Assembly (NCBI GenBank): GCA_027923505.1
Contig: BROI01000021.1
Location: 605,209-669,208, forward strand
From: Mayamaea pseudoterrestris
Lineage: Eukaryota > Bacillariophyta > Bacillariophyceae > Sellaphorales > Sellaphoraceae
DNA length: 64,000 nucleotides
Direction: 5' to 3'
Positions 22,253 to 27,434 of this stretch are shown here, one piece after another. The notes beneath the pieces were generated by a model that ran no database searches, had not been told where the DNA came from, and saw only the letters and a list, made by a program, of their open reading frames with translations. Made by a program: the position numbers and the translations under genes. Within the stretch, counting starts at the first letter, position 1; each line of letters starts with the position of its first letter.

Positions 22253-25200
22253 TTACAGGCCCGATAGGTAACCGGCTGCGGCGACTGCCTTTGGCTTGGA
22301 GCCGAAGGGAGAGTAAGATTTTGGTGCCGTCTTGGACGAAGCATGGGAGCTTGTTGCTTGCGCGGCGGAATATGTGCTCTCATTTCCGATCGAGCTGCTG
22401 TTGGAAGCGGGGGTGCGTTTTGTTGGCGCCGAGACAGAGACACTGGATTTCATCGCTTCAGCAGTTTTTAATGCAGAGAGATACGATGATCCAGTTAAAG
22501 CAGCTTTTGGTTTGCCTCCCATGAATGGCGCATAACTGGCGCGCTTCAAATTAGATCCCGCGCCCAAATTTGACATGAAACTTGATCCAGGGATGGTGGA
22601 CACTAGCTTGGCGGGTGACGCAGTGAATGAAGTATCACTTGATGGCAAAGGAGAGGCATTCTTTAAGGCTGACAGGTATGAAGATCCATTGTCCACAGCC
22701 TTGGGCTTGACACCTTGGAACGGAGCATAGCTTGCCTTCTTGCCAGCACTTGCGCTTCCACCGAGGCTTGCCATGTAGTTGGCAGGGGCTGCAGAAGATG
22801 CGGCGGAGCCTTCAACCGGAGCAGGACTTGAGGCAGAGGATGGAGCAGCTCCAGTCAAATTTGACAAGTATCCAGTCTGCTGGGCGGCCTTGGGCTTGAC
22901 ACCTTGGAACGGAGCATAGCTTGCCTTCTTGCCAGCACTTGCGCTTCCGCCGAGGCTTGCCATGTAGTTGGCAGGGGCTGCAGAAGATGCGGCGGAGCCT
23001 TCAACTGGAGCATGACTTGAGGCGGAGGAAGATGGAGCAGCTCCAGCCAAATTGGACAAGTATCCAGTCTGCTGGGCGGCCTTAGGCTTGACACCTTGGA
23101 ACGGAGCATAGCTTGCCTTCTTGCCAGCACTTGCGCTTCCACCGAGGCTTGCCATGTAGTTGGCAGGGGCTGCGGAGCCTTCAACCGGAGCAGGACTTGA
23201 GGCAGAGGATGGAGCAGCTCCAGTCAAATTTGACAAGTATCCAGTCTGCTGGGCGGCCTTGGGCTTGACACCTTGGAACGGAGCATAGCTTGCCTTCTTG
23301 CCAGCACTTGCGCTTCCGCCAAGGCTTGCCATGTAGTTGGCAGGGGCTGCAGAAGATGCGGCGGAGCCTTCAACCGGAGCAGGACTTGAGGCAGAGGAAG
23401 AGGATGGAGCAGCTCCAGTCAAATTTGACAAGTATCCAGTCTGCTGGGCGGCCTTGGGCTTGACACCTTGGAACGGAGCATAGCTTGCCTTCTTGCCAGC
23501 ACTTGTGCTTCCACCAAGGCTTGCCATGTAGTTGACAGGGGCTGCAGGAGATGCGGAGCCTTCAACCGGAGAAGGACTTGAGGCAGAGGAGGAGGAGGAG
23601 GATGGAGCAGTTCCAGTCAAATTTGACAAGTATCCAGTCTGCTGGGCGGCCTTGGGCTTGACACCCTGGAACGGAGCATAGCTTGCCTTCTTGCCAGCAC
23701 TTGCGCTTCCACCAAGGCTTGCCATGTAGTTGGCAGGGGCTGCAGAAGATGCGGCGGAGCCTTCAACCGGAGCAGGACTTGAGGCAGAGGAAGAGGATGG
23801 AGCAGCTCCAGTCAAATTTGACAAGTATCCAGTCTGCTGGGCGGCCTTGGGCTTGACACCTTGGAACGGAGCATAGCTTGCCTTCTTGCCAGCACTAATG
23901 CTTCCACCAAGGCTTGCCATGTAGTTGGCAGGGGCTGCAGAAGATGCGGCAGAGCCTTCAACTGGAGCAGGACTTGAGGCAGAGGAAGAGGATGGAGCAG
24001 CTCCAGTCAAATTTGACAAGTATCCAGTCTGCTGGGCGGCCTTGGGCTTGACACCTTGGAACGGAGCATAGCTTGCCTTCTTGCCAGCACTTGCGCTTCC
24101 ACCAAGGCTTGCCATGTAGTTGGCAGGGGCTGCAGGAGATGCGGAGCCTTCAACCGGAGAAGGACTTGAGGCAGAGGAAGAGGATGGAGCAGCTCCAGTC
24201 AAATTTGACAAGTATCCAGTCTGCTGGGCGGCCTTGGGCTTGACACCTTGGAACGGAGCATAGCTTGCCTTCTTGCCAGCACTTGCGCTTCCACCAAGGC
24301 TTGCCATGTAGTTGGCAGGGGCTGCAGGAGATGCGGAGCCTTCAACCGGAGAAGGACTTGAGGCAGAAGAGGAGGAGGAAGAGGATGGAGCAGCTCCAGT
24401 CAAATTTGACAAGTATCCAGTCTGCTGGGCGGCCTTGGGCTTGACACCTTGGAACGGAGCATAGCTTGCCTTCTTGCCAGCACTTGCGCTTCCGCCGAGG
24501 CTTGCCATGTAGTTGGCAGGGGCTGCAGAAGATGCGGCGGAGCCTTCAACTGGAGCATGACTTGAGGCGGAGGAAGATGGAGCAGCTCCAGCCAAATTGG
24601 ACAAGTATCCAGTCTGCTGGGCAGCCTTGGGCTTGACACCTTGGAACGGAGCATAGCTTGCCTTCTTGCCGGCACTTGTATTTCCACCGAGACTTGCCAT
24701 GTAGTTGGCAGGGGCAGCTGAGGACGCCGACAAAGTTTCAGTTGACGGAGCTGGACTTGATGCGATGGGTGAAGCAGAACTCAAGCTAGCAAAATATCCG
24801 GACTCTTGTACGACCTTTGGCTTGGGGTTGAACCCAGAATAACTTGGCTTCTTCATGACACTCGAGCCTCCAAGTGACGACATGTAATTAGCTGGCGCAG
24901 ATGATGTCGAGGCGGAGGTTTTTTGGACTGGACTGGATTCCTTGGCCGCTGGTTTACTTGTAACTCCGTTTAAATGCGCAAAGTACCCACTAGTTTCGAC
25001 TGCTTTAGGCTTTGAGTTAAAGCCTGAATAGCTTGGTTTCTTCATAGCCGAGTTGCCTCCTAGTGATTTGAGGTATTCCGCTGGGGCAGCTGTCAATGCT
25101 GCTGCCGCGTGTGAAGTCGTCGAAGCAGCCGGAGCAACCGGAGTGTAGGAAGGCGCTGCTGGTGTAGCCTTGTTCAAGGCGGACAAGTAGGATGGTCCAT

Positions 25201-25697
25201 CCTCAACTACCTTGGGCTTGCCCTTGAAGGGTGCGAAGCGAGCCGGCTTGGTGTATCCTGACGAAGCTCCGAGTGCAGCCCTTCGTTAAAACGAACGTGA
25301 ATTATTATTGTGTAAGATGTTATTTCTGTGTGTGTCATTGATGCAAGTATTGCCATTCGGTCCGCCAAACTTACATATAGTCGGCCGATGATGGATTCGA
25401 TGCCTTGGATTCTGCCGACTCAAAAACTGTTGGCGCCGAAGGTGCGTATGTGATTCCTGGTTGCTGTTGATCTCCAAGCACTGGCTGCGTCTTTAGTACT
25501 CCATTGTCGAGATTGCTCAGGTAGTTCCCGAGTCCAGCATCGACAGCTTGTGGCTTGGACCCTCCTGACGGTGCGTACGATGCTGGGCGAGGAGCCGACT
25601 GAGCGCCGCTGAGAGAGCTGAGGTAGGAGCTGAATCCAGCCGAAGCTCGTCCAGCTTCGAAGGCGAGAAAGATAAGGGCGCCGTGAGAGATCTTCAT
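22253..25697 (-). CDS. Secreted or plastid-routed repeat protein with about eleven near-identical 65-residue units
   Basis: Exon 1 (25697-25375) and exon 2 (25280-22253), with a GTAAG donor and AACGAAG acceptor, give 1116 residues. A signal peptide ends GRASA and is followed by GFSSYLSSLSG. The rest is built from units with a fixed pattern: NYMASLGGSASAGKKASYAP, then FQGVKPKAAQQTGYLSNL, then a Ser/Pro/Ala linker of variable length. Ten full units plus one terminal variant are almost identical; about six diverged units flank them at both ends. Each unit is basic (four Lys), with spaced Tyr/Phe and no Cys or Trp. No enzyme domain is visible. I do not recognise the family; disordered and multivalent is inference. 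It is transcribed divergently from a second YLSSL-containing gene. Confidence 0.85.
22700..24720. repeat. Coding minisatellite, about 195-bp unit, eleven copies
   Basis: On the plus strand CTTGGAACGGAGCATAGC recurs every 180-200 bp from about 22713 to about 24639. Spacing varies by multiples of three through AGG/AGA codon slippage in the Ser linker (for example GAGGAGGAGGAGGA near 23588). Near identity at third codon positions points to recent expansion or gene-conversion homogenisation. Confidence 0.92.
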
Positions 25698-26251
25698 GGT
25701 CCTCTTGTATGTTGCTGTAGATAAAAATCCGTCGCGAGGTGATGGAACGAAACGAAAATGTGTGATGCCGATTTCGACGCTTGATGTGCGGTGTCTTCCG
25801 CCCACCGCGCTTTCATTGGCGGCAGGCCAAACGCACGTCACTCTTGTTCACGTTCGTCAATCACCGTCATGCAAGTCATTTCTGGTGCACGTCAGAGATA
25901 CTTCTATACCGATCTGGAGTAAGCCATCACGGGCTGTACAGTGCTATGATCGCCAATTCAATAGCCTCCTCACGAGACGAAGGGCCAAAATTGGGATCGC
26001 GGAGGGAGCAAACCCTTGGTCTATATCATGAAAACTCGGAGATGACTCGGATGCGTGGCCATAGATGAGGTACGTACTTCGATGTCACCAACAGCCCACA
26101 GAGCTGGCCAATGGCCACCTCGAGCGAGGCTGACGCATGCGTCATCGAGGAGCCTCCCACCAGCCTCCCCCCACAGACACACAAATCGAAAACGAGCCAT
26201 CAACCAATTCGTCTCATTAACCAATCCACCCGATTTACCAACAACTACAAC
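25698..26251. promoter_or_regulatory. Divergent promoter between two secreted YLSSL-type genes
   Basis: 554 bp separating the start codons of the repeat protein and of the two-repeat plastid-type protein. An AGGTACGTACTT string lies at about 26068. No supported coding frame. Confidence 0.4.
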
Positions 26252-27434
26252 ATGAAGATCACCGGTGCTTTCCTCCTCCTCGCCTCTGGCGCCACTGCCT
26301 TCCAGCCTCTTGCAAGCAAGGGTAACAGCCGCGTCTCTCCCGTCTTTTCCTACCTGTCCAGCTTGGGCCAGGTTTCTCCCCTTGGCAGCACTCCGCAGAA
26401 CAACGACATTGCCACCCGAGGAAGCGACGTTAGCATCACCAAGAATGATTTCTTTGCTAGACGCGCTGATGAAGACCGCACGGTACGTTCAGTGACTTTT
26501 TGATGGACAAATGTCTTGTTCTTTGATGGATTTGTCGATGCGAGAAACCGCCGAGTTTTTCAACGAACACATGACTCATTTCTTCCCATTGATCTTACAG
26601 AGACGCTTGGAGGATCGCCTCAACCAACTCGAACGCGAGAACATTCAGGGCCCCAAGATTCGTTCTGGAGGCAAACCAGCTCCAGGTCGCTACATGGCAA
26701 GTGATCTCAACCCCGCCGCCATCATCTCCGACCGATCGGCCAATGTCAAAGTCCAAGGAGGTTCGCTCAAGACATGGTCGTATGCTAGTCCCATGGTCGA
26801 GCGCATTCACGTTGTTCTCAAGACGGAGGGCCGACCGCTTGACGCTGATGTTGCCTTGTGGCAGGGACCAGACAACACCCCGCACAAGATGCGCATTTAT
26901 GTGGAGGACGGCGCCGAGCGCCCATTCAGTGCAGTCATCGAGACACCAAGAGGGCCCAATACTGTTTCTATCCGAAACACTGGCCAGCTCGAATTTCCCC
27001 TGAACGCTCATGTCTTGGCTGAAGTCGACGGATCCAACAGCGACTTACCAGCTGCTAAGTCCAACGACCTCAAGACGGAAGCCATGACTATTCAGGGAGG
27101 AGCTCTTCGAACATACCCATTCGATCCAACTGTCGACAGCGTCGCTGTCCTCTTAAAAACTGACGGACGTCCACTTAATGCACGCATTGAGTTGCTCCAG
27201 GGTCCTAATAACAACAAGCAAGTCGTCGAGATCTACACCGAAGATGGGCTTGACCGCCCCTTCTTCATGATCATTGAGACACCAGGAAGCGGAAATGTTG
27301 TTCGCGTCGTTAACTCTGCAACTGTCGAGTTCCCCTTGACGGCTTGGGTTGAAGCACACAAGATTGGAACCTCATCGTCTCCACTGGAGCCAGTCATTGG
27401 CGGCGATGATGATGGCTTCATCCGCCAGTGGTAA
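26252..27434 (+). CDS. Plastid-targeted protein with two homologous about 90-residue domains
   Basis: Exon 1 (26252-26482) and exon 2 (26601-27434), with a GTACGT donor and CTTACAG acceptor at phase 0, give 354 residues. The pre-sequence MKITGAFLLLASGATA is followed by Phe17 (ATA|FQPL), an ASAFAP-type signal with a hydroxylated, basic transit segment. After a coiled stretch (RRLEDRLNQLEREN), two internally homologous domains occupy about 126-217 and 239-328. Each has QGGxLxTxxx, LKTxGRPLxAxxxLxQGPxN, an EDGxxRPF motif and a terminal EFPLxAxV. The fold is probably all-beta. I recall similar uncharacterised sequences in diatoms but no function. SYLSSLG near residue 35 is shared with the divergent neighbour. 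Confidence 0.85.

Follow-up and report, generated by a model that had tools for sequence, protein, structure and literature searches.

What a signal-peptide-bearing protein built of tandem repeats might do in a diatom is the question raised by the window, a stretch of 64,000 nucleotides of the Mayamaea pseudoterrestris genome (contig BROI01000021.1, here C21). Silicon transporters are encoded in the genome, and the light-harvesting family is matched 53 times when each exon is counted separately, so the genome belongs to a photosynthetic diatom; at C1:2970661-2974680 three silicon-transporter matches follow one another in a single frame of 1445 aa. No match to the Rubisco small subunit was found in the assembly, as expected if this subunit is plastid-encoded.

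The repeat gene, its product and its presequence

The gene is located on the reverse strand and consists of two exons, with the start codon at 25697 and the stop codon at 22253, which agrees with the extent given in a previous sequence-only reading of the same DNA. Exon 1 (25375..25697, strand -) codes for the signal peptide, the first YLSSL and the first diverged unit, and is followed by a 94-nt GT-AG intron (25281..25374, strand -) and by exon 2 (22253..25280, strand -), which codes for 11 near-identical and five diverged units and ends with AGYLSGL before the stop codon. The product of this gene model is 1116 aa long. Tandem Repeats Finder detected a single array of near-identical units at 22698..24715 (strand -) with a period of 192-195 bp (393 bp is also given) and 92-93% matches, and the number of units counted before, 11 plus six, is confirmed by a total of 17 basic blocks, with 11 cores being near-identical.

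Judged from its sequence, the conserved element of the unit consists of two YLxxL motifs, spaced by about 32 residues, on either side of the basic block KKASYAPF..KPK. The pattern Y[LM]xx[LMIV] occurs at 31 sites of the repeat protein, against a mean of 0.6 and a maximum of 3 in 300 shuffles. Members of the family have in common the first motif, [NDG]Y[LM]xx[LMI], the basic block, in which SYAP, SYSG or NYSG is found, and the second motif, YLxx[LV], and each unit is followed by a flexible linker of Ser, Pro and Ala. Within a unit the two motifs are, with few exceptions, 31-33 residues apart both in the window array and in the related proteins P0124-P0126 described below; across linkers the distances are more variable, being 27-35 residues in the former and 22-48 in the latter. 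The basic and aromatic block, previously described as recurring about every 60 residues, is thus real but represents one part of a larger unit, and the regular spacing is that of about 32 residues, with two YLxxL motifs per unit.

The protein is composed of 20.6% Ser, 20.5% Ala and 6.9% Lys, with 82 K+R residues versus 28 D+E, and there is no tryptophan in the whole 1116-aa sequence. Exon 2 (window:22256-25186, strand -) matched no Pfam family at E <= 1. A comparison of 10 equal-length cores out of the 11 near-identical ones revealed purifying selection, with a pN/pS of 0.09 and 124 synonymous versus 39 nonsynonymous pairwise differences; selection thus maintains the amino-acid sequence even though the copies are close. 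Disorder, for which a prediction had been proposed earlier, is indeed predicted for exon 2 by AlphaFold, which gave a mean pLDDT of 36.6, values below 50 for 966 of 977 residues and no helix from a thin alignment of six sequences.

The signal peptide, MKISHGALIFLAFEAGRASAG (25635..25697, strand -), was recognized by eye as a stretch of 21 residues with a probable cut before FSSYLSSL. The likely orthologue P0001 (777 aa, 45% identity to the window protein) begins with MKISAAALLFLAFEAPAAYGFSSYLSSLSG and reads AAYG|FSSYLSSL, where the cut is probably located before FSSY, so the window protein is more likely to be cut at ASAG|F than at ASA|GF, the junction favoured previously. In PMC4329603, phenylalanine at position +1 is described as common in, and crucial for, diatom plastid import, and ASAFind is described as classing proteins with a +1 residue other than F, W, Y or L as not plastid. 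By this rule the window protein would pass with the cut ASAG|F, having phenylalanine at +1, and would fail with ASA|GF. The earlier idea of plastid routing is thereby retained in so far as the presequence appears to fit import if cut at ASAG|F, a junction read by eye, and lost for the junction with which it was proposed. The phenylalanine is preceded by A, G, S or T in the tabulated family members (read by eye in the window protein, P0001 and the relative on C1), including PVVG|F in P0124 and PAVG|F in P0126. The start of the C1 relative is uncertain, as the annotated protein opens 18 residues ahead of MYFLL.

These features bear on the possibility that the protein is secreted and associated with the cell wall or with silica, as its signal peptide and its Ser- and Ala-rich composition with Lys blocks would allow. 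Silaffin-like screens require a signal peptide along with a minimum of 10% Lys and of 18% Ser, and the window protein has 20.6% Ser but just 6.9% Lys. Taken together with the +1 phenylalanine in the likely orthologue and the other relatives and with the linkage to shell genes described below, this weakens the silica or wall alternative, put forward earlier as well, to the point where we regard it as very improbable.

Pyrenoid-shell genes near members of the repeat family

The best clue to the role of the repeat protein is its divergent neighbour, which is absent from the sequence-only reading. The two start codons are separated by an intergenic region of 554 bp (25698..26251), which may serve as a shared promoter. 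Exon 1 of the neighbour (26252..26482, strand +) codes for a signal peptide with the junction ATA|FQPL and for a loose N-terminal tail, in which the motif SYLSSLG (26348..26368, strand +) is comparable to the initial SYLSSLSG of the repeat protein. It is followed by a phase-0 intron (26483..26600, strand +), the acceptor of which was picked from six in-frame candidates so as to retain the conserved coiled coil, and by exon 2 (26601..27434, strand +), coding for this coiled coil and a duplicated shell domain. The 354-aa product matches the Pfam family PF25192 DiatomPyrShell with an E-value of 6.4e-90 and PDB entry 8wqp ('Diatom the pyrenoid shell protein') with an E-value of 3.1e-100, and is hereafter referred to as PyShell; the repeat protein differs from it in having no shell domain. 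Prokaryote genome contigs scanned with the shell exon yielded no relative.

Searches of the genome with the unit resulted in four stand-alone genes, namely the window gene on C21 and one each on C1 (MPSEU_000014600, a 1272-aa ORF annotated as 1256 aa), C33 (2006 aa) and C26 (more than 2200 aa). Shell matches number 19 and were grouped by eye into 12 loci. Three of the four unit genes have a shell locus no more than 10 kb away: on C21 there are 554 bp between the starts of the two genes, on C26 the nearest shell match is about 2.6 kb away, and on C33 the distance is 6.3 kb to the start of a fusion gene (see below) and 9.0 kb to the shell match. The C1 relative, at 375 kb, is far from the only shell match on its contig, at 2,884 kb. 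Regions this near to shell loci make up 0.7-0.9% of the genome, and with this limit, which was chosen after the data were seen, the chance of finding at least three of four genes is 1.3e-6 (from a share of 0.69%), or 3.1e-6 if gene length is allowed for. With a limit of 5 kb two of the four qualify (chance 2e-4), and when a protein with WSP repeats (see below), which a distance of about 36 kb separates from a shell gene, is added as the fifth, the result is three of five (chance 8e-6). All these probabilities serve as a guide only, since the C33 and C26 genes may share a duplication history.

Several further observations were made at these loci. The shell gene copy at C1:2884185-2884624 is broken by stops. 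Two shell loci on C9 (853-863 kb and 824-834 kb), about 29 kb apart, have flanking ORFs that are alike in their first 60 residues and are probably the result of a segmental duplication. The repeat-family protein starting at C26:63722 (strand +) has a C-terminal part that resembles by eye a flavin/NAD oxidoreductase and has no Pfam match. No Pfam family was found for the C26 relative, the C-terminal region of the C33 relative, P0124 or P0126, and the C1 relative gave matches below the cut-off only. An EF-hand in the C33 relative (E 7.8e-11 for the whole protein) was taken as spurious, as it covers 16 residues and no stretch is significant on its own. On C33 there is also a domain of about 175 residues (C33:235804-236334, strand -) that matches no Pfam family and has no significant counterpart in the PDB, the best PDB match of the C33 C-terminal region having an E-value of 0.25; at E <= 1 this domain is matched 11 times in the genome, nine times with values below 1e-3.

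Outside this genome, P0124-P0126 have the same architecture as the window protein (E 1e-14 to 1e-9) and all end with SSYLSSL, and when P0124 is used as the query, the window gene is the top match in the genome (E 2.2e-6). P0123 seems to be a weaker relative with irregular units. The source labels of the outside relatives (jgi, lgn) suggest metagenomes. The protein searches scored the approximately 8,000 candidates sharing most words, and more relatives may exist; viral contigs scanned with P0126 contained none.

The distribution of the family leaves some room for a scaffold of the plastid that has no connection with the pyrenoid, acting for instance at thylakoids or plastoglobules, with the shell neighbourhood being due to chance or duplication history. 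It would be in keeping with the position of the C1 relative away from shell genes and with the relative fused to the by-eye flavin oxidoreductase without a Pfam match. However, three shell loci as well as the predicted fusion and the shared motif described in the next section would all have to be coincidence, which makes such a scaffold distinctly unlikely.

A predicted fusion and a motif shared with shell N-termini

At C33:229497-226698 a degenerate unit and a shell domain are joined in a predicted protein of 907 aa, according to a gene model alone. The first exon codes for a presequence with the junction SEA|FGSYLDQL and for the degenerate unit DYFSSM...PKKSYGP...GFLSGL, and the 76-nt intron is in phase 0, so the predicted fusion gene and the shell gene of the window each have a phase-0 intron ahead of the same coiled coil. 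An ORF at C26:46-50 kb likewise combines a presequence with one unit-like stretch, GYLGSI...PKAIYAP...GFLDQL, just upstream of a shell exon, with an in-frame stop in between, and the two may be separate genes.

The motif itself, YLxxL or a close form, is present in the N-termini encoded at six shell loci (C21, C13, C26:61 kb, C2:1165 kb, C2:1944 kb, where it reads YLSDI, and C33) and is not found in those of two others (C2:1167 kb and C19), in a tally over the 12 loci that leaves out the two on C9, C1 and C26:49 kb. Among the 60 shell proteins with a full N-terminus from the best 120 of 3089 shell matches, at least two of which (P0011 and P0019) belong to the M. pseudoterrestris genome itself, [YF][LM][SDTAGNR]x[LM] occurs in 12 N-termini, against 0.99 in 1000 shuffles (maximum 5). 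Alternative forms gave 8 of 60 versus 0.27 for the YLSx[LI] type and 13 of 60 versus 2.4 for Y[LM]xx[LMI] in shuffled sequences; the letters of the motif were chosen after the list had been seen, and the 60 sequences are related to each other. Most of the N-termini have no motif, from 47 to 52 of the 60 depending on the form (48 with the main one). Two shell-domain proteins, P0004 and P0005, come from records labelled Aureococcus anophagefferens, which are possibly mis-assigned.

In the full-length AlphaFold model of the shell protein P0003, residues 21-34 and 37-67 have pLDDT values below 50 and the motif (33-37) is located at the break between these two stretches, a placement in the model that would be expected if the tail is loose and the motif a short linear one.

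The genomic evidence suggests that shell and repeat protein belong to the same assembly, and it is from the shell-gene neighbourhood, the predicted fusion and the shared short motif that the original guess of a pyrenoid role gains support. The likeness to pyrenoid linkers drawn in the sequence-only reading persists with regard to multivalence and predicted disorder, and a link to the pyrenoid shell is added; the motif, though, is YLxxL and the genomic link is not to Rubisco.

Shell connector or Rubisco linker

The window protein is basic, composed of tandem repeats and predicted to be disordered, which is the design feature of the EPYC1/PYCO1 type of linker. EPYC1 of Chlamydomonas is similar in all three respects and has a unit of about 60 residues, like that of the window protein, from which it is set apart by a motif other than the YLxxL/basic block; the linkage to a shell gene has no counterpart in Chlamydomonas either. 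SAGA1 and SAGA2 are examples of Chlamydomonas pyrenoid proteins with the EPYC1-type sticker. Such use of one short motif by several pyrenoid proteins, as presented in PMC10288592, resembles what is seen here, with another motif and in another lineage. The Chlamydomonas pyrenoid is surrounded by a starch sheath, and known pyrenoid linkers share no sequence homology, according to a 2026 review (PMC13159521).

PYCO1 of Phaeodactylum, which is also a diatom, is a disordered, basic tandem-repeat protein that carries aromatic stickers and has a presequence for the plastid (PMC10288592). Instead of its motifs the window protein has YLxxL pairs and KKxSYAPx..KPK. Membership in PYCO1 through KWSPRGGS or EWxSMN, the motifs given in the same text, was ruled out, as the window protein has no tryptophan, and the GTGYNP repeat is absent from its translation by reading. 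The previous remark that the motif is not one recognized from either linker holds for PYCO1. No match at E <= 10 came from PDB searches with X-separated PYCO1 motif strings, an insensitive type of query, or with the profile of the family. DYLSxM loosely resembles EWxSMN with a different spacing, which is a lead only; variants of this helix, which binds the Rubisco large subunit, occur in other proteins according to Oh et al. (PMC10288592).

In spite of these differences the protein might be a pyrenoid-matrix Rubisco linker, the counterpart of PYCO1 or EPYC1, with YLxxL or the basic block binding Rubisco directly, and the link to the shell would then come down to co-regulation and to a tag by which shell proteins bind Rubisco. 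The repeated, basic (82 K+R versus 28 D+E) and presumably disordered chain is as in EPYC1, and YLxxL and YLxxM are found in a separate protein with WSP repeats as well. That second protein (C26:9290-13729, strand +; 1479 aa) has a presequence with the junction SSVG|F, five motifs of the YLxxL/YLxxM type, 14 PGxxW sites, six of which read WSPG, a BTB_2 domain and a C-terminal domain common to the repeat proteins of C33 and C26. Its WSPGGG recalls KWSPRGGS of PYCO1, and on this likeness it is a candidate PYCO1 counterpart. The WSP-repeat protein may therefore suit the linker role better than the window protein, which has none of KWSPRGGS, GTGYNP and EWxSMN, and we consider the latter unlikely to be the Rubisco linker. 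If the WSP-repeat protein is the Rubisco linker in this diatom, the window protein is more likely a shell connector.

It is quite reasonable to suggest, and we hold it to be rather probable, that the window gene codes for a plastid-imported, disordered and multivalent scaffold of the diatom pyrenoid, the stickers of which link the shell lattice to the matrix. What has been computed is the unit, the constraint on it, the predicted disorder, the presequence pattern, the shell neighbour, the motif shared with shell proteins and the predicted fusion. The scaffold would be a long soluble chain bearing tens of weak motifs; once imported into the plastid, it would bind many copies of its partner and thus condense or act as a tether, the repeats acting as stickers that join the lattice of pyrenoid-shell protein to the matrix inside; some shell proteins, carrying one motif on the N-terminal tail, would join the same network. 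We infer here the location in the pyrenoid, the binding partner, the condensation and the side faced by the motif. The partner fitting YLxxL could be the shell lattice, or else Rubisco, in which case shell and scaffold would both grip the matrix. Shell proteins can form a lattice alone, and this was counted against the scaffold.

A broader and more tentative proposal, which we find possible though on balance doubtful, is that YLxxL with its flanking block is a general sticker of the diatom pyrenoid, by which one motif assembles both the shell and the Rubisco matrix. It would be present in one copy in many shell proteins, in a few copies in the PYCO1-like WSP-repeat protein and in up to about 31 copies in the scaffolds. 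The idea is the same as that of the shared sticker in Chlamydomonas, with an unrelated motif and with the shell included. No description of the YLxxL-repeat family was found in titles and opening lines of abstracts on diatom linkers and shells; the family may already be listed in the two 2024 Cell papers on the diatom pyrenoid or in the Mayamaea genome paper.

As much as 20% of global CO2 fixation is attributed to diatoms, and no PYCO1 relatives were found by BLAST in other sequenced algae by Oh et al., as stated in PMC10288592. The findings bear on how Rubisco is condensed in diatoms that have no PYCO1 relative and on how the protein shell of the diatom pyrenoid joins the Rubisco matrix, and the motif, the gene family and the predicted fusion make the question testable with short peptides.
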